Positions 4,888 to 43,031 of a stretch of DNA of 44,197 nt are shown here, one piece after another; the first letter of the stretch is position 1, and each line of letters starts with the position of its first letter. The stretch is from Candidatus Melainabacteria bacterium. GTDB lineage: Bacteria > Cyanobacteriota > Vampirovibrionia > 2-02-FULL-35-15. The notes beneath the pieces are model-generated. The model searched no databases, was not told the DNA's origin, and saw only the letters and a list, made by a program, of their open reading frames with translations. A program made the translations under genes and the position numbers. The stretch spans positions 1 to 44,197 of the forward strand of contig JACQBQ010000049.1 of assembly GCA_016201905.1 (NCBI GenBank), given 5' to 3'.

Positions 4888-7383
4888 TTACTCTTCTTTT
4901 TCTGCTTGATTGACATTGCTTTCTTCTTCAGTGTGTTTTGTAACTGAAGCTACATAATCTTCTTCATCCAGCTTTTGTAATCTAACGCCTGTTGCCATTC
5001 TGCCTTGACAGCTTATGTCGTTAACTTTTGAGCGTAAAACAACTCCATGAGCTGAGGCAATAATCACTTCATCAGTTTCTTTGACGATATCTAATGATGC
5101 CAGGTGACTCGATTCAGATTTAAATTTAGTGCCAATTAACCCAACTCCAGAACGATTTTGAACACGAAACTCTTCAAGCTCAACTCTTTTTCCGAAACCA
5201 TCAGTAGTTACAAGTAAAACCTGCTCTTTTGATTCAGCAGGGAATGTATCAAATCCAACTACATAATCACCCTCGCGCAGATTTATGGCTCTTACACCTC
5301 TTGCTGTTCTGCCAAGCGGCCTTAAATCTTCCTCATTAAATCTTAAAACCATTCCATCATAAGTACCGATAATAATATTGTCTTTTCCATAGCTTGTTCT
5401 AACCCAGCCTAACTGATCGCTTTCATCAAGGTTCATAGCTACGATCCCAGATCTTCTTACGCTTTCAAAATTATCCATTGAAATCTTTTTTACTACCCCT
5501 TGTTTTGTAAGCATTACGAAGTAGTTATCTTCCTTAAACTCACTTGTTGTATAAATAGCAGTGACTTTATCATCCTGGCTGATTGAAACTAAATTAAAAA
5601 TTGCTTGACCTTTATGCTGTGTGCTTCCTTCAACGACATCATAGACCTTAGAACTATAAATCGATCCACCCTGTGTAAAGAAAAGGAGAGTATCGTGCAT
5701 ATTTGCAATCTGAAAATGCTCAACTGCATCTTCTTCTCTTGTCTTAATTCCGCCTTTTCCTCTTGTCGCTCTGTTTTGTCTTTCAAATTTTACAAGGGGT
5801 ATTCTTTTTATATAACCTTTTTCAGTAAGGAAGACTACCACTCTTTCATTTGGAATAAGGTCTTCTTCGGAAAAATCTTCAGCTGCCTGGACGATCTTTG
5901 TACGACGAGCGTCGGCATATTTTTTCTTGGATTCTGTTAATTCTTGTTTGATTATGTCTAATATTAACTGTCTTTGTGAAAGTATTTTCTTTAGTTCTTT
6001 AATTCTCTTATTTAGCTCTTTGTTTTCTTTTTCGATCTTTTCTCTTTCTAAGCCAGTTAATTTTCTAAGCTGCATTTCTAAAATTGCATTTGCTTGTGGT
6101 TCGTCTAAATTAAACTTTTTAATTAAACCTTCTCTTGCTTTTTCTGCATCTTCAGCAGCTCTTATAAGCTTTATGATGGCATCGATACTTTCAAGAGCAA
6201 TTAAAAGCCCTTCTAAAATATGAACTCTGGCTTCAGCTTTTCCAAGCTCAAACTTACAGCGCCTGGTGATAATTTCAACACGATGTTCTATAAACTCATT
6301 TAATATTTCTTTTAATTTTAAAGTTTTTGGCTGTTTACCAATAAGGGCTAAAGTATTTATAGAAAATGTTTCTTGAATTTGTGTGTATTTGTATAAGTTA
6401 TTTAAAACAACATCTGGCTTGGCATCTCTTTTAAGTTTAACAACTACACGAAGTCCATCTTTTCCTGACTCGTCATTTAAGTCAGCAATGCCAGTTAGTC
6501 TTTCATCCTTAACAAGATCAGCAATTTTATTTATTACCATTTCAGGTCCGACCAGATAAGGCAACTCAGTTATAACAATTCCTGTTACCATGCCGCGACC
6601 TGAACTGCTCGGCACTTCTTCTACGGTGGCATGACCACGAACAGTGATAGATCCTCTTCCTGTTTCAAATGCTTCTTTAATTCCGCTTGTTCCCATGATC
6701 TGACCACCTGATGGAAAGTCCGGACCTTTAATGTGCTGCATTAGTCCTTCTGTATTAATTTCTGGATTATCAATTAAAGCAATTGTGCCATCTATAACTT
6801 CGCTTAAATTATGTGGAGGAATATTTGTAGCCATTCCAACTGCAATTCCGCTTGAACCATTTAAAAGTAAAATTGGAAGTTTTGATGGAAGAAGAACAGG
6901 TTCTTTTAAGCTGCCATCAAAGTTATCAGTAAAATCGACAGTTTCAGAATCAAGATCAGCTAGGATTTCCATTGAAATACCTGTAAGCCTTGCTTCTGTA
7001 TAACGCATGGCTGCTGGCCCATCGTCAAGTGAACCAAAATTACCGTGGCCATCTACAAGTGGATAACGTGAACTGAATGACTGAGCTAATCTGACAAGTG
7101 CTTCGTATACAGCAGTATCACCATGTGGGTGGTACTTACCTAAAACTTCTCCAACTATACGTGCACATTTTTTATATGGTTTGTCTGGAGTAAGACTAAG
7201 CTCACTCATTGCAAATAAAATTCTTCTGTGAACAGGCTTTAGTCCGTCTCTAGCATCAGGTAGTGCTCGGCTGACAATTACACTCATGGCATAGTCTATA
7301 AAACTACGCCTCATTTCATCTTTAATATCTACTTCTACAAGTTTGCCTGGGTTAGGTGCTGGTGTGTCTTTTGCTTTTGCCAT
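4888..7383 (-). CDS. gyrA: DNA gyrase subunit A
   Basis: GyrA is the breakage-reunion subunit of type IIA topoisomerase, pairing with GyrB to introduce negative supercoils. The catalytic tyrosine is Y128 in AMRYTEARL. The quinolone-determining region reads [13 protein letters not shown], with T90 and E94 at the positions of E. coli Ser83 and Asp87. A coiled-coil tower lies near residues 430-490. The C-terminal domain has beta-pinwheel blades, and a diverged GyrA box ([10 protein letters not shown]) favours GyrA over ParC. Length 831 aa is typical. ATG 7383 gives [20 protein letters not shown] before the conserved start of the core. Confidence 0.95.
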
Positions 7384-10957: not shown

Positions 10958-12262
10958 ATGCCAATAATAAAAGATTTAAAAAAGGCACATAAGAAAATCT
11001 TAGAAATCAATTCCCGCTTTGATTTAGCTAAGAGAAAAAATGAACTTAAAGCTGTAGAAAAGATTATTGATAATGTAAAAAGGGGTGGTGATAAAGCTTT
11101 AATTTATTACACAAAGAAATTTGACAAAGTTAATTTAAAAAATATCAAAGTTTCAAAAGCTGAAATAAAAAACTCTACAAAAGATATTTCTTATAAGTTA
11201 CTTACTTCGATAAAAAAGGCCATTGAAAGAATTAAAATATTTCATAAAACAAATGTTCCTTCTACATGGATTAAATCATTTAAGTTAAAAGAAAGATTAG
11301 GCTATAAATATGTGCCTTTAGATTCAGTTGGCATCTATATTCCAGGCGGTCAGAGTCCTTTAATATCTACAGTCTTAATGACAGCAGTTCTGGCTAAAGT
11401 AGCTGGTGTAAAAAGAATAGCTATATTTACACCACCACCAGTTCATAAAGGGATTTTAGCAGCATGTAAGCTCTTAGGTTTAAATGAGATTTATCAGGTA
11501 GGCGGAGCACAGGCAATTTCTGCAGCTGCATTTGGTACAGAAAGTATAAAATCAGTTGATAAGATAATAGGTCCTGGAAATATTTATGTTACGCTTGCAA
11601 AAAAACTAGTCTTTGGGAAAATTGGCATTGATGGACTTTATGGACCAAGTGAAATTGCAATTATTGCAGATAAAAGTGCAAGACCAAACTATTTAGCAAT
11701 TGATCTTTTAAGTCAGCTTGAACATGGTTCAGGACTTGAATCAGCGTTTATAGTGACAAACAGTGAAATCATAGCTAAAGAAACACAAAAAACTCTTTTT
11801 AAATTAGCTAAAAATCTGCCAAATAAAAAGATAGTATTGAATTCCTGGAAGAAAAACAGTGCAATTGTAATCGTTAGAGATTTAAATAAAGCCAGTGACT
11901 TAATTAATATGCTGGCTCCTGAACACCTTGAAATTATTACAAAAAATCCAAGTCATATATTAAATAAAATAAAACATGCAGGTGCCGTTTTTCTGGGTGA
12001 GTACTCATGTGAATCAATCGGAGACTATATTGCAGGACCAAGCCACTGTCTGCCTACAGGTGGCAGTGCAAAGTTTTCAAGTGGACTTACAGTGATGGAT
12101 TTTATGAAAAAAATATCTGTTATATCTTTTGATAAAAAATCATTTAATAAAGTAGCAAAAGATGTAATAAACCTTGCAGATGCTGAAGGACTTAAAGCAC
12201 ATGGAGATGCTGTAAGAGTGCGGTTCAGGTCATTGCGAGGAGCGTTAGCGACGAAGCAATGA
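10958..12262 (+). CDS. hisD: Histidinol dehydrogenase HisD (C-terminus encoded by a repeat)
   Basis: HisD oxidises L-histidinol to histidine in two NAD-dependent steps using a zinc site. Motifs seen are VGIYIPGGQSPLIS (substrate loop), VGGAQAISAAAFGT, GPGNIYVTLAKKL, the zinc/catalytic segment LSQLEHGSG, APEHLEI, and GPSHCLPTGGSAKF. The family usually ends shortly after EGLxAH. Here the frame continues after AEGLKAHGDAV into RVRFRSLRGALATKQ, which is read through the palindromic repeat 12226-12266, and stops inside it. The tail therefore looks like a late repeat insertion. Other his genes in this window (hisG, hisZ) lie 11 kb away. ATG 10958 follows another repeat copy. Confidence 0.93.
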   Translation: MPIIKDLKKAHKKILEINSRFDLAKRKNELKAVEKIIDNVKRGGDKALIYYTKKFDKVNLKNIKVSKAEIKNSTKDISYKLLTSIKKAIERIKIFHKTNVPSTWIKSFKLKERLGYKYVPLDSVGIYIPGGQSPLISTVLMTAVLAKVAGVKRIAIFTPPPVHKGILAACKLLGLNEIYQVGGAQAISAAAFGTESIKSVDKIIGPGNIYVTLAKKLVFGKIGIDGLYGPSEIAIIADKSARPNYLAIDLLSQLEHGSGLESAFIVTNSEIIAKETQKTLFKLAKNLPNKKIVLNSWKKNSAIVIVRDLNKASDLINMLAPEHLEIITKNPSHILNKIKHAGAVFLGEYSCESIGDYIAGPSHCLPTGGSAKFSSGLTVMDFMKKISVISFDKKSFNKVAKDVINLADAEGLKAHGDAVRVRFRSLRGALATKQ

Positions 12263-31035: not shown

Positions 31036-32248
31036 TACAAAAATGATTTATGTTGACAATAGTGCAACTACCCGGGTAAGACCTGAAGTAGTTGAAGCTA
31101 TGCTGCCCATTTTAAAAGATGACTTTGGTAACCCATCTTCAATGCATGGGTTTGGAAGAAAAGCAAAAAAGCACTTAGATGACGCAAGGATAAACATTGC
31201 TTCTGTAATTAATTCTGAAGCTGAACAAATATTTTTTACAAGTGGTGGAACTGAATCTGATAATGCTGTAATTTTTGGTTTAGTAAGATATTTCGAGGAA
31301 AATGAAATAAAAGGGAAGAAGAAACATATAATTACTAGCAAGATTGAACATCCTGCAATTAAAGAACCACTTGAATGCCTGCAAAAAGATGGCTGGCATA
31401 TTACATGGCTAAATGTAAATAGGGAAGGATTTCTGGATTTAAATGAATTGCAGTCTTTAATCACAAAAGAAACACTTTTAGTCTCTGTAATTCATGCAAA
31501 CAATGAAATGGGTACGATTCAGGATTTAAATAAAATTTCAAATATTTGTAAAACTAACAATGTGTTATTTCACACGGATGCTGTTCAATCATTTGGGAAA
31601 ATTCCAATTAATGTAAAAGATCTACAACTTGATTTTTTATCCATGTCTGCGCATAAAATATATGGACCTAAAGGAGTTGGTGCTTTATATATTAAGTCTA
31701 AAGATCATTTTGCACCTTTATTAATTGGAGGTGGTCAGGAAAATCAAATTAGGCCTGGTACAGAGAACCTGGCTTCTATTGTAGGTTTTGGTATAGCAGG
31801 CAAATTATTAAAAGGTGAAATGTCTGAACATACAAAAAACCTTTGTGGGCTTCAAATTGAGCTAATGAAAGGTTTATCAGATATAGAAAATGTAATGTTA
31901 ACTGGACCTTCTCTTCAAATGATCAAAGAAAACACTTTGACTGAGAGATATCTTTATAGAATTCCGGGCCATATAAGCATATGTGTAAGAGATGTTGAAG
32001 GAGAAAACATTGTTTTACAAGCTGACTTAAAAGGAATTGCAGCTAGCTCTGGATCGGCATGTTCTAGCGGTACTATGGAACCCTCACATGTTTTAGTGTC
32101 TCTTGGAGTTCCACATAACTATGTAAGAGGTTCTTTGAGATTAACTTTAGGAAGAGAGAATACTGAAGATGACGTGAGATATATCATTGAATCTGTTAAA
32201 GACATTGCAGGAAATTTACAGAGAAAAGCATTGACTTTAAACAATTAA
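31025..32248 (+). CDS. Cysteine desulfurase (NifS/IscS family)
   Basis: A PLP enzyme that moves sulfur from cysteine to an active-site Cys for Fe-S clusters and thio-cofactors. From ATG 31025 the PLP lysine is K211 (SAHKIYGPKGVGALY) and the persulfide Cys is C346 in SSGSACSSGTMEPSHVL, an IscS/NifS-like loop. HANNEMGT and HTDAVQSFGK bind PLP. Length about 407 aa. ATG 31025 has an AAGGA site 11 bases upstream and overlaps the rrf2 end. ATG 31043 is the alternative. The 3' end overlaps the convergent ABC gene by 12 bases. Confidence 0.92.
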   Translation: MFNNTKMIYVDNSATTRVRPEVVEAMLPILKDDFGNPSSMHGFGRKAKKHLDDARINIASVINSEAEQIFFTSGGTESDNAVIFGLVRYFEENEIKGKKKHIITSKIEHPAIKEPLECLQKDGWHITWLNVNREGFLDLNELQSLITKETLLVSVIHANNEMGTIQDLNKISNICKTNNVLFHTDAVQSFGKIPINVKDLQLDFLSMSAHKIYGPKGVGALYIKSKDHFAPLLIGGGQENQIRPGTENLASIVGFGIAGKLLKGEMSEHTKNLCGLQIELMKGLSDIENVMLTGPSLQMIKENTLTERYLYRIPGHISICVRDVEGENIVLQADLKGIAASSGSACSSGTMEPSHVLVSLGVPHNYVRGSLRLTLGRENTEDDVRYIIESVKDIAGNLQRKALTLNN

Positions 32249-34051
32249 TTTAGGTTTTAAAAAATAATTAAGATCTGATTCTTTAGCTGAAAATAGCTTG
32301 TAAAACCTTCCGTTTTTATTTGAGACAAGACTATTCCAGTCTCCAGTTTCAACTATTTTACCTTTATCTAAAACATAGATTCTGTCTGAGTTACAAACCA
32401 TAGATAACCTGTGACTTATAATTAAAACTGTAATTTCACCATGAAGTTGTTCTATTGCTCCTTGAATTTGTTTTTCGTTTTCTGAATCTAAGGAACTAGT
32501 TGCTTCGTCTAAGATTAAGAGTGATGGCTTTCTAAGCAATGCTCTTGCTAAAGCTAGTCGTTGCCTTTCTCCTCCTGATAAACGAATGCCTCTGTCACCT
32601 AAAATTGTTTCCAATCCTTCTGGGAGTGTTGAAATAAATTCTTCACAGGCAGCAAGTTTTAACGCTTGTTTTATTTCTTTTTCACTAGCATTTGGACATG
32701 CCCAAAGAAGATTTGCATGCACAGTGTCATGAAATAGAAATGTATCCTGGGTAACATAGCCAATATGACTTCTCCAGGAATTTATTCTTTCCGCAGACAG
32801 TGGATTATTATCTATCTTAATATAGCCTTTGTCTGGGGTAAGTAAGCCCATAATTAAATCTGCGATAGTACTTTTCCCGCTGCCAGATGGACCAACAATT
32901 GAAATGAACTCTCCCCTTTTAATAATTAAATTTAAATTTTCAATAACTGCCTTTTCTTTTTCATAACTAAAAGAAATATTATTAAGTTCAATAGTCTTTT
33001 GAAATTCAATTGTTTCTTTATCTTCAATCTTTACTTCTTTTGCAGCTTCACATTTTATCTGCAGATCATTTACATTGGCAAAAGCAGGTAACATGTTTAT
33101 GACCTGGTGGTAGTCCTGTTGAATATTAGAAAATCTTGGCATAACTCTAGCAAACAAATAAAGTAATAATAGAACACTGGCAGTGTTAATCTTTAGAACA
33201 TTAAAAGAAACATAGAGTATAAAACTTAAAATTAAAACAGAACCAACAGCAAACCAAAACCTTACATTAGCCAGTAAGCGGTTAAGGTTTATAAACATTT
33301 GTGCTCTATGAGAAGACAGATTAGAAAATATGTTAACGTTTTTTTCTTCAGCACAGTAACTTTTAGTAGTTTTCATCCCACTGAAATGTTCAATGCTGGC
33401 AGAATAAAAAGAACTTGTTTCTTTTGATATTTGCTCTCCAGATCGGTAAACTTTATTAATTTGTCCTTTAAATAAAAACAAGAGTATTACACCGCAAATT
33501 AATGTAATTAGTGTCATTTGTGGTGAAAGTTGTAATGCTAACAATAAGTACACCAATGTTATTATGCTGTTTGCAATTACTTGTAGAAAAAAATGAGTTC
33601 CTATGCCAACACGATCAAGTTCATTAATTAAAATTTGTGTAAAATCAGAAGAACGCTTCTTAGAAAAAAAGAGCCAACTTGTGTTAGAAATAGCCTTATG
33701 GAGTTCCACTCTTAGATAAAGCACAAATTTGTTTTCGAGATAATTATTAACTAATGTTTGTGAACGGCTTAATAGTGCACTTATACTTGTAATAGATACA
33801 TAAACAAGAAGCACAGTAATTAGTGTTATTGGAATTCCAAATTTAGTAAAAACAGATGATATAAATCTTGCTAATTGTCCTATAGTACCTTCTGTTGTAT
33901 GAAGTCCAACCAATTGTAATAGTGGGATAAAAAGTAGTAGTCCTATTCCTTCTGTAAGTCCAACACTAATTATTAATATGAGTGACAGTGCTACTCTACA
34001 CTTCATGTTTGAAATTAAGCTTTTAAAATATGTCCAAAAAGTGTTTTTCAT
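32237..34051 (-). CDS. ABC transporter, fused membrane and ATPase domains (lasso-peptide exporter type, LasD/McjD-like)
   Basis: Residues 1-320 hold about six membrane segments of an exporter-type half-transporter. Residues 355-590 hold the ATPase with Walker A GPSGSGKST (387-395), Q-loop region YVTQDTFLFHDTV, signature LSGGERQ (491-497), Walker B LILDEATSSLD (512-522) and switch H547. There is no C39 peptidase domain, fitting a cluster in which a separate B2 protease cuts the leader. It is last in the cluster, overlapping the nucleotidyltransferase gene by 4 bases. As in other lasso clusters it would export the finished peptide and give self-protection. Confidence 0.85.
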   Translation of the reverse strand: MKNTFWTYFKSLISNMKCRVALSLILIISVGLTEGIGLLLFIPLLQLVGLHTTEGTIGQLARFISSVFTKFGIPITLITVLLVYVSITSISALLSRSQTLVNNYLENKFVLYLRVELHKAISNTSWLFFSKKRSSDFTQILINELDRVGIGTHFFLQVIANSIITLVYLLLALQLSPQMTLITLICGVILLFLFKGQINKVYRSGEQISKETSSFYSASIEHFSGMKTTKSYCAEEKNVNIFSNLSSHRAQMFINLNRLLANVRFWFAVGSVLILSFILYVSFNVLKINTASVLLLLYLFARVMPRFSNIQQDYHQVINMLPAFANVNDLQIKCEAAKEVKIEDKETIEFQKTIELNNISFSYEKEKAVIENLNLIIKRGEFISIVGPSGSGKSTIADLIMGLLTPDKGYIKIDNNPLSAERINSWRSHIGYVTQDTFLFHDTVHANLLWACPNASEKEIKQALKLAACEEFISTLPEGLETILGDRGIRLSGGERQRLALARALLRKPSLLILDEATSSLDSENEKQIQGAIEQLHGEITVLIISHRLSMVCNSDRIYVLDKGKIVETGDWNSLVSNKNGRFYKLFSAKESDLNYFLKPKLIV

Positions 34052-35307
34052 AAACCTACGCTATAACCTACATCTTTTTCTTTTGTATTACTAGAGCTTG
34101 GTAAAGAACCTATAAGTGGCTTCAATGATCCAAACATATACTTCTTTATAAGACGGAGAGGTCTTGTTATGTAATATAAAAATGAAAGATATTTTGGGAA
34201 TGATATAAATGACCAGTCTCCAATAGTTGGGGTAATAACAAGGGAAAAACAATATCTGATTTTATGTAAAAAGCTATCCAGTATTTTAAGCTGAAAAATA
34301 CATTGTTCTTTAATTTCTGGAGGACCAGAAATGTTATTAAATGTTTTTGTGCAGACTTCTTTAGAAAGTGATATTACAAGTGGATCTGCTTTAGCTTTTT
34401 CTAAAACTGTTTTTGGGATTTCTATTTTAAATAGTATGTTAGTTAGAAGAATCCCTAGATGAAACACTTTTTCCATGTCAAGTATTCTAGCTCTCTTGGT
34501 TACTGCCTCCCATTTTATCTTCTTGTTTTTTATTAGCTGAGCAATATCAATAATTAATTTTAATTCACTCCAAGAGTCTTTAGCACCATGAATGCAAAGA
34601 ATTAAAAGCAGGTCTTCAGGTGATAAGCTCTTTATGGTTTGTCCGCCAAATTCTATTTCCTGAAGATTATTCCATAGCTCATTAAATTTAAAATTGTTAT
34701 TGAAGTATTTTTGTACAACTCTCCAGTGAATATCTATTTCTGGTCCCGTTTTGGTTTGAAAGACAAGCTGGTAGTGATATTTAAAGAAAGCATCTTCCTG
34801 TGATTTCGCTAAACTATATTCGGGTATGTATCCTTCAGAAATGAGTATTTCTTTTATTAAGTGCATGTCGTTTTCTTTAACTAAAAAATCAAGATCACTG
34901 AACTCACGTAAAGAAAGGTTTCCATAGAGATAAGAAGTGATTACAGGTCCTTTAAAAGGAATTATTGAAATATTTTTAGCCTTAAATAATTTAAGTAATT
35001 TCAACAATTCCTGACTTATGGATAAGTTACTTAATGTGGTTTTGTGGCAATACTCTCTTAGATAATTTAAATATTTATCTGGAATAAGTTCTAAGCAAGA
35101 ATTATTTATATGAAAATATAAGAGCAGCAATATATTATTTGCTAAAGCCATAGTAAACAAATATTCCCAATTTATTCCATTTTGAAGAATTCTCTTTAAT
35201 CTTTTAGTTCTTTCAGAATCAATATTTGTACTTGTGCAGGAAAGCAAAAACTCTGCTTCAGGAGAAGATGGTATATAGCCATCGTTTGAATTTGTTTTAG
35301 AACGCAT
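34048..35307 (-). CDS. Nucleotidyltransferase-fold protein (PF14907-type) of a lasso cluster
   Basis: The segment KGPVITSYLYGN (119-130) followed by REFSDLDFLV, with D138 and D140, is the metal-binding pattern of the uncharacterised NTP_transf_5 family. Residues 180-260 contain the HWRV and SLSPEDLLLILCIHGAKDSW motifs of the same family. Its substrate is unknown. Homologues are recurrent neighbours of lasso-peptide and similar RiPP genes. Here it overlaps the oxygenase gene upstream by one base and the ABC gene by four, so it is part of the same transcript. A role in peptide tailoring is inference. Confidence 0.7.
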   Translation of the reverse strand: MRSKTNSNDGYIPSSPEAEFLLSCTSTNIDSERTKRLKRILQNGINWEYLFTMALANNILLLLYFHINNSCLELIPDKYLNYLREYCHKTTLSNLSISQELLKLLKLFKAKNISIIPFKGPVITSYLYGNLSLREFSDLDFLVKENDMHLIKEILISEGYIPEYSLAKSQEDAFFKYHYQLVFQTKTGPEIDIHWRVVQKYFNNNFKFNELWNNLQEIEFGGQTIKSLSPEDLLLILCIHGAKDSWSELKLIIDIAQLIKNKKIKWEAVTKRARILDMEKVFHLGILLTNILFKIEIPKTVLEKAKADPLVISLSKEVCTKTFNNISGPPEIKEQCIFQLKILDSFLHKIRYCFSLVITPTIGDWSFISFPKYLSFLYYITRPLRLIKKYMFGSLKPLIGSLPSSSNTKEKDVGYSVGL

Positions 35308-36248
35308 TAATTTATATTACTTACAAGCCCGATATTTTTAAATTCTTGAACTTGATTTAATATGTCTCTCTTTAGAATGTCAGGAGAGACATCATATTCA
35401 TCTTTCATAGCGTGAAACGTTTCTTGTAAATTACTTGTTTCATTAAGAAGCTCCCATAAACGACTCCCAACAGGATTAAATAAATATTGTAAGCCAGTAT
35501 TCATATTAAATATAGAAATTTGATCATGATTTGTTCGACTAATAACTGCTTTATTAAGCTTAAGATGATTTTTTAGTAAAGTTTTTGTTTCTGTAAATTT
35601 GGTATTATGTTTTAATGATTTTTTTTCAGTAAGTAGTTTCTCCCTAGCTTTTGATACAAACCACCCAGCTAAAGCAGTTTTTGGCACTTTACCATTAACA
35701 TGAGTAACCCTATGCTCTAAGTTCTCCCCTACCCGGAAAATAATTGTGTTGCCAAATCCAATATTAGAAACCTCATGAATTATTTTTTTTGAATACCTGT
35801 TACGTATTTGAAGAACTCCACCAGAGTAAACTCCTGTACTTAAATTTATACTTACAGCAATTAAACGATTTTCCGCATCATCATCATGCCAATAGTTAGC
35901 CTGTTTAATTCCTGGCATGAAACGGTATACCCTTCCTGTAAAACCTTCAATATTTTTACACTCTGTTATTTCTTTAATTATGTGAAATAGTTTTTGTTGG
36001 CTAAGCATGAAAAACAATAAACCGGTTAGTTTATTATTTCTCAAACATAATTCTTCATCTAATCCTTTATAAATTTTTCGAGAGAATTTAGATAGTTCGA
36101 TCTCATCTTGAATAGATTTTAAAAGATCATGCTGTATGAATTTTGGCAATAATATACAGTGGCTTTTATTAAACTCTTTTTTTAAAGAGGCTAAATCTTT
36201 TAAAGAAAGAGAGATTTCTGTGTCATTTTTTGTAAGTTGAATTGTCAT
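35307..36248 (-). CDS. 2OG-Fe(II) oxygenase fused to a PqqD-like recognition domain (second copy)
   Basis: The N-terminal about 200 residues form a prolyl-4-hydroxylase-like double-stranded beta helix. The iron ligands are H121-x-D123 (YWHDDD) and H179 (LEHRV), and K190 is a candidate 2-oxoglutarate-binding base before AGWF. Residues about 226-311 form a PqqD-like domain (LNKAVISRTNHDQ, LFNPVGSRLWELLNE, then the helical end QEFKNIGLVS). Such a domain usually grips the leader peptide of a RiPP precursor. The enzyme is therefore likely to hydroxylate the lasso precursor. It is a tandem copy of the gene 1 base upstream. Confidence 0.75.
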   Translation of the reverse strand: MTIQLTKNDTEISLSLKDLASLKKEFNKSHCILLPKFIQHDLLKSIQDEIELSKFSRKIYKGLDEELCLRNNKLTGLLFFMLSQQKLFHIIKEITECKNIEGFTGRVYRFMPGIKQANYWHDDDAENRLIAVSINLSTGVYSGGVLQIRNRYSKKIIHEVSNIGFGNTIIFRVGENLEHRVTHVNGKVPKTALAGWFVSKAREKLLTEKKSLKHNTKFTETKTLLKNHLKLNKAVISRTNHDQISIFNMNTGLQYLFNPVGSRLWELLNETSNLQETFHAMKDEYDVSPDILKRDILNQVQEFKNIGLVSNIN

Positions 36249-36249
36249 G

Positions 36250-37221
36250 TTAATTTATACTGCTTACAAGTCCAATATTTTTAAATTCTTGAACTTGATT
36301 CAATATATCTTTCTTTAGGATGTCAGGAGAAACATGATACTCATCTTTCATAGTGTGAAATGTTTCTTGTAAATCACTCGTTTCATTAAGAAGCTCCCAT
36401 AAACGACTTCCAATAGGATTGAATAAACAAAAGGAACCAGAGTCTGTCTTAAAAATAAGAACTTGATTACCATCTTTTCGACTAATAACTGCCTGATTAA
36501 TCTTAAGATGATCTGTAAGTGTAACTTTTGATTTCTTGTTGTTTAGGGGTAGATAATAATTTTTTTTAATTTTACTGCCATGTTTTAAGAGTTGTTTTTT
36601 AGTGAAGTTGTTGGTTCTGGGTTTTACTCTAAACCACCCAGCATAGGCAATTTTTGATACCTTACTTCTAACATTAGTAACCTTATGTTCTAAATCTTTT
36701 CTTAAGCGAAAAAGAATTGCATCGCCAAATCCTGTGTTTTTAATTTCATGAATTACTTTTTTTGAATATCTATTACGTATTTGAAAAACTCCTCCAGAAT
36801 AAATATCTGTACTTAAATTAATACTTAGGGCAAGTAAACGATTATCTTTCAAATCATTATGCCAGGTATCAAAATGTCCTAACCTTGGTACAAATTTGTA
36901 TACTCTTCCTAGAAAACTTTCAATTTTATTACACCCTGTTATTTTTTTAATTATATGAAACAGTTTTTTTTGGTTAAGCATGAAAAACAATAAGCCAATT
37001 AACTTATTATTTTTTAAGTATAATTCTTCACCTATGCCTTTATGAATTCTTTTAGAGAATTTACATAGCTTGATTTCATCTTGAATAGACTTTAAAAGAT
37101 CAGAGTGTATAAATTTTGGCAATAAAATACAATGTTTTTTATTAAACTCTTTCTTAAAAGAATCTAGTTCTTTCGAAGAAAGTGAGTTTTTTGTATCATT
37201 TTTTGTGATTTGAATTGTCAT
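36250..37221 (-). CDS. 2OG-Fe(II) oxygenase fused to a PqqD-like recognition domain (first copy)
   Basis: Same architecture as its downstream twin, with strong similarity along its whole length (both end VQEFKNIGLVS-xIN). Counting from the TTG at 37233, the iron ligands are H125-x-D127 (TWHNDL) and H183 (LEHKV), and K194 is the candidate 2OG base. The PqqD-like part starts near residue 240. I prefer ATG 37221 because it matches the twin's MTIQxTKND start; subtract four from the numbers above for that start. A linker of about 35 residues is longer than in the twin. The iron ligands are intact in both, so both may be active. Confidence 0.75.
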   Translation of the reverse strand: MTIQITKNDTKNSLSSKELDSFKKEFNKKHCILLPKFIHSDLLKSIQDEIKLCKFSKRIHKGIGEELYLKNNKLIGLLFFMLNQKKLFHIIKKITGCNKIESFLGRVYKFVPRLGHFDTWHNDLKDNRLLALSINLSTDIYSGGVFQIRNRYSKKVIHEIKNTGFGDAILFRLRKDLEHKVTNVRSKVSKIAYAGWFRVKPRTNNFTKKQLLKHGSKIKKNYYLPLNNKKSKVTLTDHLKINQAVISRKDGNQVLIFKTDSGSFCLFNPIGSRLWELLNETSDLQETFHTMKDEYHVSPDILKKDILNQVQEFKNIGLVSSIN

Positions 37222-37225
37222 GTTA

Positions 37226-38173
37226 TTATGCAATTAAAGTTAACCTTTCATTAGCATTTATGTCTAATAGTAATATTTTACTAAGCTCTTCTATATTTGG
37301 AATACCTTTTGGGTAAGTTAAAGTCTTTGCAGGAACGTGTTTTGTTACTTGGCTTAGATTTAAAAACAGGCGTTTTAATATATTAAAATCACTAGCGTCT
37401 AGAATCTGAGCATTTTTTATTAATTCGTAAAGAGCTTCTTTTTTACTAATAGATGTAATTGCTGCAGGGCTTATTTCTTTAATAGGATTTAAGAAATAGA
37501 TTTGAACTAAAGGAAAACTTCCTGCAGCATGTTGTAAAGTAGTAAAGGAGGTGAAAATTTTTTTTTGAGATTCTTGGATTATAGTTTTTAAGTTAAGTGC
37601 TTCTCTTACACGTGGCCATAAGTTCATTTCAGGTGGTCCACTTTTTATAAAGATTTTTTCACCATGAAGATAAAGGGGTATTTTGTCATCTGAAACCAAG
37701 TGAAATCCTTTCTGTATAAGGCTTGCAGCAATAGTTGATTTTCCATCACCACTTCCTCCGATAAAAGCAATTGCACCTTTTGAAGTTAAAACAGAACTTG
37801 CATGCAAGGTTTCTATATTTTTATGATTCATAACCAGAGGAATTACAGTATTTAAAAGTAAATGTCTTACTTCTTCTTTTGCTTTTTGTGTAGGTGCCCA
37901 ATAGTATATTTCTGAACAGTCTGGGCTAATAGTAAAAACTACACCATCAGTATGAAAATCTAAAACAAACCACTTGTCATCTCTTTTCCCAAATGAAAGA
38001 ACAATACCTGAGTTTACCCCCTTCCAGGTCTCGTACCACACAACCTTGTTTGAACTGTACAACTTCGTAGAAGATGGTTTAATATAGATATCAGTAGTCT
38101 TATTATTAGTTTCTGTAAGTCCTCTTGCAACTTCTTCAGGAAGGGACAAAGTAATTCCATAGACTTCATACAT
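37226..38173 (-). CDS. HPr-kinase-like protein of a lasso cluster
   Basis: A P-loop protein with GGSGDGKST (residues 139-147), the pattern of bacterial HPr kinase/phosphorylase, followed by LVSDD (159-163) and KSGPPEMNLWPR. H124 in TLHASSV and the N-terminal beta-rich segment fit the family. It has no HPr-specific features I can confirm. Related kinases phosphorylate the C-terminal Ser of the lasso peptide paeninodin. Here the precursor ends in SFLA, with Ser52 four from the end, so phosphorylation would need a different site. It starts 15 bases after the precursor gene. Confidence 0.75.
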   Translation of the reverse strand: MYEVYGITLSLPEEVARGLTETNNKTTDIYIKPSSTKLYSSNKVVWYETWKGVNSGIVLSFGKRDDKWFVLDFHTDGVVFTISPDCSEIYYWAPTQKAKEEVRHLLLNTVIPLVMNHKNIETLHASSVLTSKGAIAFIGGSGDGKSTIAASLIQKGFHLVSDDKIPLYLHGEKIFIKSGPPEMNLWPRVREALNLKTIIQESQKKIFTSFTTLQHAAGSFPLVQIYFLNPIKEISPAAITSISKKEALYELIKNAQILDASDFNILKRLFLNLSQVTKHVPAKTLTYPKGIPNIEELSKILLLDINANERLTLIA

Positions 38174-38188
38174 AAAAAGATTTAGTTA

Positions 38189-38356
38189 TTATGCTAGAAA
38201 TGATGGCCCATCCGACTTGCCAGAAAGTTTTCTGTCTACAGATAGTGTTAACTTCTTAATATTCCCATAAGAAACTATTTTAGGTGTAGCATAAGCTTTT
38301 TTTGTTTTGTTTTTTTGCTTTGTTTTTTTGTTTTGTTTGTTTTTATCTGATTTCAT
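38189..38356 (-). CDS. Lasso-type RiPP precursor peptide, 55 aa (candidate)
   Basis: The ATG at 38356 is preceded by AGGAAGG (38364-38370) with seven bases between, one of the better sites in the window. Residues 2-20 are an unusual Lys/Asn/Gln-rich run. Residues 22-37 match the lasso leader pattern Y-x2-P-x5-G-x5-T (Y22, P25, G31, T37; YATPKIVSYGNIKKLT). The C-terminal part is SVDRKLSGKSDGPSFLA (39-55). It lies exactly where a precursor is expected, between the cyclases and the kinase. If cleavage follows the usual rule (Thr at -2), the only acids are at core positions 3 and 11, not the canonical 7-9. Confidence 0.82.
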   Translation of the reverse strand: MKSDKNKQNKKTKQKNKTKKAYATPKIVSYGNIKKLTLSVDRKLSGKSDGPSFLA

Positions 38357-38449
38357 TTTTTTACCTTCCTTAGTTTATAAAACAATATCATTCTAACAAA
38401 TATATTGTGAATAAGAAATAATATACAAAGTACTTTAATCCTAATTTAA

Positions 38450-40366
38450 TTACTTCTTGTTTAATTTTAGGTTACTTCTGTTTTCTATTTCTCTTAACCA
38501 TGCTTCTAAATACAATAAAGGGTATAACTTTGATATAGCACCTTTAGTTTTACTTACCTGGTTTGTATACTTCTTAGAAAAAGCTTTATACTCATTACGA
38601 GCAGCAGCTCCATTTATAATTCCAAGAGCTTCTAAACGGGATGAAGTTAGTAATTTTTTTATATTTTCAGTATTGTTTCCTATTAATTGCTTGTTTAGGT
38701 GGGTAGTGAAAGATGTTTTCCATGTACGGTTACGGATTTTTTCAGGGAGATATGAATTAAGCACTCTTCGCAAAAGACCTTTTTGTTCTTCATCATAGTC
38801 AAGAACATCAGGTGGAACGCTTAAAGTAAATTCTATTAATCTTTTGTCTAAAAAGGGCATTCTAAGTTCTATGTTAGATGTGCGTAAAAATGTTTTTTCA
38901 AGGTCTTGAATAGTTCTAGTTAAATGTCCGTAATAGGATGCATGGTAAAGTGTTCTCATGTCGTTAGTTTTAAGTTTATGGTTCTTGAGAGAGGCTGGTC
39001 TTCTTCGAAGGTGTTGTACTGCCAAGTTTTTATATTCTTTAGTTAACCATGGATAGCGTCTATAGACAGCCAGATAAGTTCGAAGTTTTTTTAAAGGGTT
39101 TGGTATAAAATCTCTAACTATTTCAGGAAGAATGTGTTTTATAGCATACCAATAAGAAGTGTCATGAAACTTTCCAAAGTTCTTTGTATACTTCCAGGCA
39201 CGAAATAGATGCCCAGATAAGATTAGATCAGTGGCAGAACTAAGAGATGTAGATATAATGTCATCACCGCCTAATCCAGAAAGTAATACTTTTATCTTGT
39301 CCTCTTTAGCTTTAATAGCAATTTCTTCAAATGTAAACGTATCATACCAAAATGGTTGTGAATCAGCCCATGAAGTATTTTGTAATTCCCAGGGTGCATG
39401 TAACATTTTAGATTCAACAAAATGAATTTCAGTTTGCCACTTTTTTTGAACTGAGAGTATGTATTCTTTTTCATCACAAGGTTCTCCAGGGTACAGTGTT
39501 GAATATGCACAAACATCTGCTATAACTTTTTTTTGTGTTATTAGATCTTCAGCCATGCATAAAATTGAAGATGAGTCAAAACCACCACTAAAAAGTACAC
39601 CAGTGTTACCATTTGTACGTAAATTAGAAATAACAGCTTTCTTAAAAACATCTAAGAAAGCTTCTTCATACTCTTTTATGGAATTTAATTTTAATGTTTT
39701 AATTTGATCTATGCTCATATACTCATTATCTTCTAAAGAACATTCTTTAATTGAGAGAGTATGAGCTGGTATTAACTGATATATGTTTTCAAACTCTGTA
39801 TCCTCAAGTCCAAAATTAAAGAGTATAAAATCAAGTAGAGCAGCTTTGTTTAATTTTTTATTGATGAATGGCAAAGCAAAAATAGCCTGTGGATCGGAAG
39901 CAAATATAAAAAAGCCTTCTCCTTTATAATAATAAAAAGGTCTAGCTCCTTCAATATCTCGAGCACAGAAAAGTTTTTGATTGTTTCTATCCCAGATAGC
40001 AAAAGCAAAATCCCCAACTAATTTTTCAGCACATCTTTCTTTCCATGCTTCATATGTGGTGAGTATAAGTTCGCTATCTGTAATATTTGAATTAGAAATA
40101 TTAAGTGTTTTCAAAAGCTCATCGCGATTATCGATTCTTGCATCAGCAATAAGCACAAGATCACCTCTTTTACTTATTAATGGAAGCTTTTCATTTAAAG
40201 ACTCTGGTGTGGTACGAAGCAAACAATTTCCAAGACCAATAGCTCCTTCAAACCAAATCCCAGAGTCATCAGGACCTCTGTAGGAAATAGCTTCCAGCAT
40301 TTTCTCCAAATGATGTTTTTCAACAGGTCTTTTGTCAAAAAAATAAATACCAATGATTCCACTCAT
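38450..40366 (-). CDS. Asparagine-synthetase-like lasso cyclase (LasC), second copy
   Basis: An AsnB-type protein, N-terminal Ntn-like domain plus an ATP-pyrophosphatase domain. The PP-loop is SGGFDSS (residues 260-266), and a later SGLGGDD binds the adenylated intermediate. The glutaminase nucleophile Cys2 is missing (residue 2 is Ser, MSGIIGIYF), so it cannot be an ordinary glutamine-dependent asparagine synthetase. In lasso cyclases this domain is retained in that inactive form. It would adenylate an Asp/Glu side chain and close the macrolactam. ATG 40366 overlaps the first copy's stop by 4 bases. Confidence 0.82.
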   Translation of the reverse strand: MSGIIGIYFFDKRPVEKHHLEKMLEAISYRGPDDSGIWFEGAIGLGNCLLRTTPESLNEKLPLISKRGDLVLIADARIDNRDELLKTLNISNSNITDSELILTTYEAWKERCAEKLVGDFAFAIWDRNNQKLFCARDIEGARPFYYYKGEGFFIFASDPQAIFALPFINKKLNKAALLDFILFNFGLEDTEFENIYQLIPAHTLSIKECSLEDNEYMSIDQIKTLKLNSIKEYEEAFLDVFKKAVISNLRTNGNTGVLFSGGFDSSSILCMAEDLITQKKVIADVCAYSTLYPGEPCDEKEYILSVQKKWQTEIHFVESKMLHAPWELQNTSWADSQPFWYDTFTFEEIAIKAKEDKIKVLLSGLGGDDIISTSLSSATDLILSGHLFRAWKYTKNFGKFHDTSYWYAIKHILPEIVRDFIPNPLKKLRTYLAVYRRYPWLTKEYKNLAVQHLRRRPASLKNHKLKTNDMRTLYHASYYGHLTRTIQDLEKTFLRTSNIELRMPFLDKRLIEFTLSVPPDVLDYDEEQKGLLRRVLNSYLPEKIRNRTWKTSFTTHLNKQLIGNNTENIKKLLTSSRLEALGIINGAAARNEYKAFSKKYTNQVSKTKGAISKLYPLLYLEAWLREIENRSNLKLNKK

Positions 40367-42310: not shown

Positions 42311-42748
42311 TTAATTTATTTCTAAGAGAGGTTTGTAATGTTCAGCTTCATGTTCACCCAGGATAACTTTACCATTACTTTCTAGCCAGGCATGGGCTTG
42401 CAGATTGTTTTTATTTTCAGTGTTCTTGGCTACACCAATGCAAAGATTAGACTCATAGCCATAGTGTGCAAGCAAAATTTGTCCTGTTATTGATTTTATA
42501 AGACAAGTCTTGGTCCCAGGTATAAAATTGCAAGCTACTTCTATAGCCCAGATTATGCGATTTTTAATTGGCGGGTTAACCTTATTAAATTTCTTGGTTT
42601 TTTTAATAATATGATTTATGTAGCTTGAGATAATTTTTATCGGAAATATAAACAATATGATTCTAATAATGAAAACCAGGATAACTGCTTTAATTAATAA
42701 AAATTTTTCGCTTAGTGGAAGAATAAGAAATTTACTTAAGAGTTTCAT
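42311..42748 (-). CDS. Transglutaminase-like leader peptidase B2 (LasB2)
   Basis: A 145-residue protein of the Transglut_core3 family that removes the leader from the lasso precursor with B1. The catalytic Cys is C82 (GTKTCLIKS) and the His is H119 (LQAHAWLES). In McjB-type enzymes an Asp follows 12 residues after the His; here that position is Gly with Glu next (GE, 131-132). A hydrophobic stretch (about residues 18-38) could be a membrane anchor. I use ATG 42748. The upstream TTG at 42769 would overlap B1 by 38 bases. Confidence 0.82.
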   Translation of the reverse strand: MKLLSKFLILPLSEKFLLIKAVILVFIIRIILFIFPIKIISSYINHIIKKTKKFNKVNPPIKNRIIWAIEVACNFIPGTKTCLIKSITGQILLAHYGYESNLCIGVAKNTENKNNLQAHAWLESNGKVILGEHEAEHYKPLLEIN

Positions 42749-43031
42749 TTTTAATTTCAATAAGTCCAATTGTTTTTAAATCATTTAAAAGTGCAATGAG
42801 ATCGTTTTTGCAATGGTCAGGCTCAACATCATAATTCTCTAAGATAGAATCACGGATTTCTTTTACTGTTTTTGACTTTTGAATAAGCTCCCAAACTGAT
42901 GCTCCAATTGCATCAAGTCCATAATATATACCATCTTTAAAATTAAGAATCACTGCTTCTCCTGCTAAATCACAGGAGACTTGCTCTTTAGAAGGCATAA
43001 AAATTGATCGTTCAGATATTGTAGATTTCAT
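42732..43031 (-). CDS. PqqD-like RiPP recognition protein B1 (LasB1)
   Basis: A 99-residue protein with the PqqD/RRE fold, two beta strands then helices (EAVILNFKDGIYYGLDAIGASVWELI, then TVKEIRDSILENYDVEPDHC, then LLNDLKTIGLIEI). It binds the leader peptide and hands it to B2. The first gene of the cluster, with a strong GGGAGGG site (43035-43041) just before ATG 43031. It overlaps B2. Its fold repeats in the tails of both oxygenases, so the cluster has three leader-binding domains. Confidence 0.88.
   Translation of the reverse strand: MKSTISERSIFMPSKEQVSCDLAGEAVILNFKDGIYYGLDAIGASVWELIQKSKTVKEIRDSILENYDVEPDHCKNDLIALLNDLKTIGLIEIKNETLK

Follow-up and report, generated by a model that had tools for sequence, protein, structure and literature searches.

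A lasso-type precursor with a displaced ring acid in Candidatus Melainabacteria, a candidate for an 11-residue ring

The lasso rings described in the literature consulted here normally contain 7–9 residues. A small gene at 38189–38356 (minus strand) of a contig from Candidatus Melainabacteria, a group related to cyanobacteria but not photosynthetic (JACQBQ010000049.1, assembly GCA_016201905.1; the whole stretch of 44,197 nucleotides is named the window), encodes a precursor of the lasso type that lacks an acid at these positions. The preliminary description of the locus had proposed a non-canonical ring or a related RiPP. This holds in part: the precursor is of the lasso type, has no acid at 7–9, and has relatives sharing the displacement, and the ring size stays a prediction. 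We favor the reading, with a probability of about 0.4, that the precursor exemplifies a long-ring variant that recurs, its own ring being predicted to span the 11 residues from S39 to D49 (38210–38242, minus strand; D49 codon at 38212–38210).

The precursor gene (named A) begins with ATG and encodes the 55 residues MKSDKNKQNKKTKQKNKTKKAYATPKIVSYGNIKKLTLSVDRKLSGKSDGPSFLA, as given in the ORF list. Reading of the sequence located a Shine-Dalgarno, AAGGAAGG, at 38371–38364 on the minus strand, 7 nt 5' of the ATG, which confirms both the frame and the good Shine-Dalgarno first reported for it. The leader M1–L38 (38243–38356, minus strand) carries Y22 (−17), P25 (−14), I27 (−12), and T37 (−2), assigned from the published spacing and that of relatives, and is followed by the putative core S39–A55, SVDRKLSGKSDGPSFLA (38192–38242, minus strand), as predicted from the T(−2) rule. 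The leader pattern Y..P.[ILVM]...G.....T has a single match in the window, which is the 55-residue frame; in 200 dinucleotide-shuffled copies of the whole window it matched 7 times in total, or 0.035 expected per window. The frame is a real gene, the lasso leader pattern claimed for it is borne out, and a chance ORF is ruled out by this low expectation. The match to the NCBIfam model lasso_cyano (NF033528; E=3e-4, residues 19–37, that is, the leader only, with 20.7 of 33 bits and under the cut-off) is weak evidence taken alone. The preliminary description had set its proposal against another short gene fitting the lasso core rule; we looked for one in the ORF list and by the leader-pattern scan, and no second, canonical precursor is present in the window. 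The core was found in one genome, and the viral contigs scanned with the precursor gave no match.

The gene belongs to an operon on the minus strand. Upstream of the precursor lie a leader-binding PqqD-like RRE protein (named B1; 42732–43031; PF05402, E=1e-18; lasso_PqqD_Bac, E=4e-20, under the cut-off), the leader peptidase (named B2; 42311–42769; NF033537, 92 bits versus a cut-off of 33; PF13471), and two lasso cyclases with intact conserved motifs, C2 (40363–42300; NF033535, E=1e-134, under the cut-off; PF00733) and C1, which adjoins the precursor (38450–40366; NF033535, E=8e-134, under the cut-off; PF00733). The cyclase and B1 lasso models are "exception" models, and the matches to them are strong yet under their cut-offs. 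Downstream lie an HPr-kinase-like kinase (named K; 37226–38173; PF07475, E=2e-6, under the cut-off) with an intact His-Lys-Asp-Asp set, two 2OG-Fe(II) oxygenases fused to a PqqD-like domain (36250–37233 and 35307–36248; PF13640 and PF05402 above the cut-off in both), the second 66% identical to the first, an NTP_transf_5 nucleotidyltransferase-like protein (named N; 34048–35307; PF14907, E=7e-61), and an ABC exporter (32237–34051; PF00005 and PF00664). The cyclase–A–kinase order is conserved, with the same placement of the precursor in relatives. C1 and C2 (38450–42300) are 46% identical, giving two cyclases for a single precursor. The genome measures 2.28 Mb, and B2 was found there just once, in the window.

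The B1, B2, and cyclase genes of a lasso cluster are thus all in place, and Y(−17), P(−14), and T(−2) are all matched in the leader. With the T(−2) cut, the acids of the core are at positions 3 and 11 only, in agreement with the preliminary description, and an Asp or Glu at 7–9 appears only with a shifted N-terminus. Published lasso precursors have the Tyr, Pro, and Leu of the leader at −17, −14, and −12 (PMC10368454), and Y22, P25, and I27 match these positions exactly if S39 is residue 1, with T37 then at −2. Recognisable precursors kept the same leader spacing even in a first survey that left the position of T free to vary, and among them the T-to-acid distance varies while the leader spacing is constant. 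The spacing of Y(−17), P(−14), and T(−2) thus points to a cut after L38, with the core starting from S39. Judged by these residues, the oddity lies in the core and not in the leader.

Precursors of the same family support D49 as the acceptor. A second lasso-type cluster of the same genome (named L029) has a precursor that ends with LTQ followed by GTRSRGKETTRRSA. Two further precursors end with LTQ followed by GRSPMKSEPPGTYQS (G009, carried by the related Candidatus Melainabacteria contig L057) and with LTK followed by GDVGSVDDGGGQLAG (G008). All three are canonical, with Gly1, an acid at 8 (or 7), and a tail of 6–7 residues. In an alignment with the L029 and G009 types, T37 and the acid of the window precursor are three residues further apart, and Gly1 is missing. 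Its tail after D49, GPSFLA, has 6 residues, matching the family; since the same post-acid tail of 6–7 residues is found in all four precursors, D49 is the likely acceptor. The Lys-rich N-terminal run, earlier regarded as unusual, is common to all four, the three relatives having Lys-rich extensions of similar length.

We then asked how often the acid is displaced. Loci were obtained from B2 searches and comprise the lasso loci of the phylum and one large family, with precursors taken beside cyclase genes. The final count kept the Y-to-T spacing fixed and thus describes the T-to-acid distance for canonical leaders alone. It covered 104 cyclase-bearing loci with 159 distinct precursors, of which 143 have an acid at T+8 to T+10 (ring positions 7–9). 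The other 16, about one in ten, have their first later acid at T+11 (6), T+12 (6), T+13 (2), T+15 (1), or T+16 (1); that of the window precursor is at T+12. The one precursor at T+16 (L150) shares its locus with a canonical sibling and may not be in use. The type EQVKPKKLG[AS]SDDF, with the acid at T+12, occurs in three genomes (L074, L078, and L103), with full clusters at L074 and L078. Further displaced-acid precursors are QNKTKNLGSSDAL and QGRVKQLGSSDAL (both T+11), EQTFSKSAGTGDS (T+12), QANAPNFPFNGFDGGSS and LTSSTLSPTLAGDGGS (both T+13), and EQSNPNITKNVGSGDTF (T+15). Such precursors occur in otherwise complete clusters, and their one-in-ten share suggests natural lasso-type peptides with rings beyond 7–9 residues. 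A conserved SDG, expected earlier to mark a family, did not hold up: several displaced-acid relatives carry SD or DG at the acid, and the literal SDG varies, with SDD or SDA in a Nostocaceae group with W leaders and [IFG]DGG in another cyclase clade, so that SDG was rejected as a strict family motif. NTP_transf_5 was rejected as a marker of long-ring clusters because it is widespread in the surveyed loci.

The displaced acid could also reflect an ordinary ring with a shifted start, which we consider rather unlikely. B2 would cut later, or the end would be trimmed, and the core would begin at R42 (8-residue ring), D41 (9-residue ring), or K43 (7-residue ring, KLSGKSD). Cuts before D41 or R42 had been proposed in the preliminary description; they do give known ring sizes, and the leader spacing argues against them. 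A core starting at R42 would have 14 residues, like that of the genome's second cluster, and Val at −2, a position at which Ile or Val is known in other kinase-type lasso precursors. Furthermore, the ring acid of the W-leader relatives is likewise the last residue of a K-x-x-G-x-x-D block. However, Y and P would be three residues too far from the cut, recognisable precursors keep their spacing with Thr(−2), and no peptidase for trimming was recognised among the genes of the cluster.

Three comparisons from the survey bear on this choice. At L205 and L081, the nine pre-acid residues form an ungapped alignment and the extra residues adjoin the cut, so a shifted start fits better there. At L098, NAFG follows T in the three sibling precursors, and a single additional residue precedes the acid in one of them, which points to a ring that has grown from within. 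In the W-leader group, QQVKTFGRQD (9-residue ring) and EQVKPKKLGASD share QVK by the cut and K-x-h-G-x-x-D before the acid, and this likeness at both ends argues for an insertion inside the ring. Collectively, these alignments lean towards larger rings.

The distribution of the displaced acid was further compared with the cyclase phylogeny. On a midpoint-rooted tree of 107 cyclases, with 10 rows labelled as displaced-acid by hand from the survey and ambiguous ones left out, the displaced type takes 4 changes versus 7–10 in 300 label shuffles. This shows lineage-specific inheritance from few origins, and it says nothing of function. The window cyclases group with those of L029 and L030, whose precursors are canonical, and the window case would therefore be an origin of its own; given the midpoint root and the long window branches, we are unsure of the deep placement of C1 and C2. 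We put forward tentatively that cyclases of several cyanobacterial and Melainabacterial lineages may in nature form rings of 10 to about 14 residues, with the window precursor as an 11-residue-ring member.

Under the 11-residue-ring reading, the gene supplies the precursor for a lasso cluster of the kinase type. B1 would bind YATPKI of the leader, and the kinase, probably together with the PqqD-fused oxygenases and N, would modify the core before the leader is removed, a serine being phosphorylated in a kinase-dependent step ahead of folding. B2 would cut two residues past T37 to free the core, and a cyclase, most likely the adjacent C1, would activate D49 and join it to the amine of S39. The product, a macrolactam ring of 11 residues followed by a tail of 6, would be exported by the ABC protein. 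Six residues make a short tail to thread through a ring of this size, and the product could therefore be a lariat without threading. In engineered lasso cases, altering the ring size by one led to a lower yield. No natural lasso ring of more than 9 residues was found in the open-access papers searched, reviews included, a set that leaves out most subscription papers and is not proof of absence; as far as this literature shows, the recurrent long-ring variant is apparently undescribed.

The proposed order of steps has parallels in known systems. PadeK, BsfK, and PsmK carry out kinase-dependent Ser phosphorylation before folding (PMC10368454, PMC9266682, PMC8498205), and PsmN adds hexoses. The systems of paeninodin (PadeK), pseudomycoidin (PsmK/PsmN), and Bradymonas BsfA (BsfK) resemble the window in B1, B2, cyclase, HPrK-like kinase, exporter, and YxxP leader; pseudomycoidin also shares N, and paeninodin-type clusters share the cyclase–A–kinase order. 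Unlike the window precursor, they have the ring acid at 7–9. Their kinases phosphorylate the C-terminal Ser (PadeK type) or Ser3 (BsfK type), both missing in the window core, which has Ser at 1, 7, 10, and 14, Asp at 3, and Ala at the C-terminus. Oxygenase–PqqD fusions are present in the window, and none is reported in the papers on these three systems. Cyanobacterial lasso_cyano precursors beside B2, cyclase, and kinase genes are like the window in leader, gene order, and kinase; their acid is mostly at T+9 or T+10, in contrast to T+12. The Nostocaceae EQVKPKKLG[AS]SDDF type and the precursors of L165 and L191 come with full clusters that include a kinase, have no acid at 7–9, and have it at T+12 or T+13, as in the window, but their cores are otherwise different and their cyclases belong to other clades. 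They are uncharacterised, and no characterised cyanobacterial core was found in the open-access papers searched, most subscription papers being outside this coverage.

A linear, uncyclised phosphopeptide, with the core phosphorylated, perhaps also glycosylated and hydroxylated, and D49 unused by a cyclase, seems improbable to us. The linear polyphosphorylated peptide systems (PMC13381572) do share an RRE, an HprK-like kinase, an NTP transferase, an exporter, and a [Y/W]xxP leader with the window, four Ser are available in the core, and neither a cyclase match nor a suitable acid is present in some cyanobacterial loci that carry B2 and this kinase. Those systems, however, have no macrolactam cyclase and a SipW-like peptidase, whereas the window has B2 and two cyclases with conserved motifs, one adjoining the precursor, and relatives of the same layout carry canonical lasso cores. 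Decay of the precursor, by an in-frame insertion that spoiled the ring and left the cluster or one cyclase without a working substrate, would fit two cyclases with one precursor, a core from one genome, and canonical nearest relatives, but is very improbable with an intact ORF, a strong Shine-Dalgarno, a perfect leader, a conserved tail length, and intact partner genes.

Intact clusters that break the 7–9 range in a lineage-specific manner make the ring limit testable, and long-ring clusters could supply cyclases for larger rings. Filters on ring size may miss real precursors. Should the large-ring reading be true, lasso or lariat peptides with large rings would form a class that the 7–9 rule conceals. 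Should the N-terminus prove to be shifted, the exception would be to the rule of cleavage at T(−2).

The second cluster of the genome (L029, 4583–17837) has its canonical precursor and is without a B2 of its own, so the window B2 may serve both clusters. The kinase motif reads SDN in L029 versus SDD in the window, and an NTP_transf_5 protein at 6373–8115 of L029 is fused to a methyltransferase domain. The genome has seven 2OG-Fe(II) oxygenases, two at 35307–37233 of the window and five in a row at 11143–15982 of L029, most of them bearing a C-terminal PqqD-like domain. Full-length oxygenase matches in the phylum sample came from this genome only, plus one in L057, and a search for sister clusters via oxygenase relatives led to few related clusters beyond the order and to no other precursor like that of the window.

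The survey also returned loci of other kinds. Seven Nostocaceae loci (L012, L014, L016, L069, L071, L072, and L100) have B2, kinase, and NTP_transf_5 genes with no strong cyclase match in the stretch examined; their paired precursors, SYSEPELKAHGKISGLTQQVGGSGGFGTT, are without a suitable acid, and they resemble the linear polyphosphorylated peptide systems. The cyanobacterial loci L192–L203 have low-scoring B2 and cyclase matches and no kinase, and their precursors show canonical spacing and cores rich in Arg, His, and Trp, for example LGWRGWRRDHRHHRRRRRHGGGHGG. In an acidobacterial ORF (L065, 10899–11957), a lasso-type leader, KKPFEAPRLTVYGD, runs straight into an apparent kinase frame, which looks like a fusion or a lost core.
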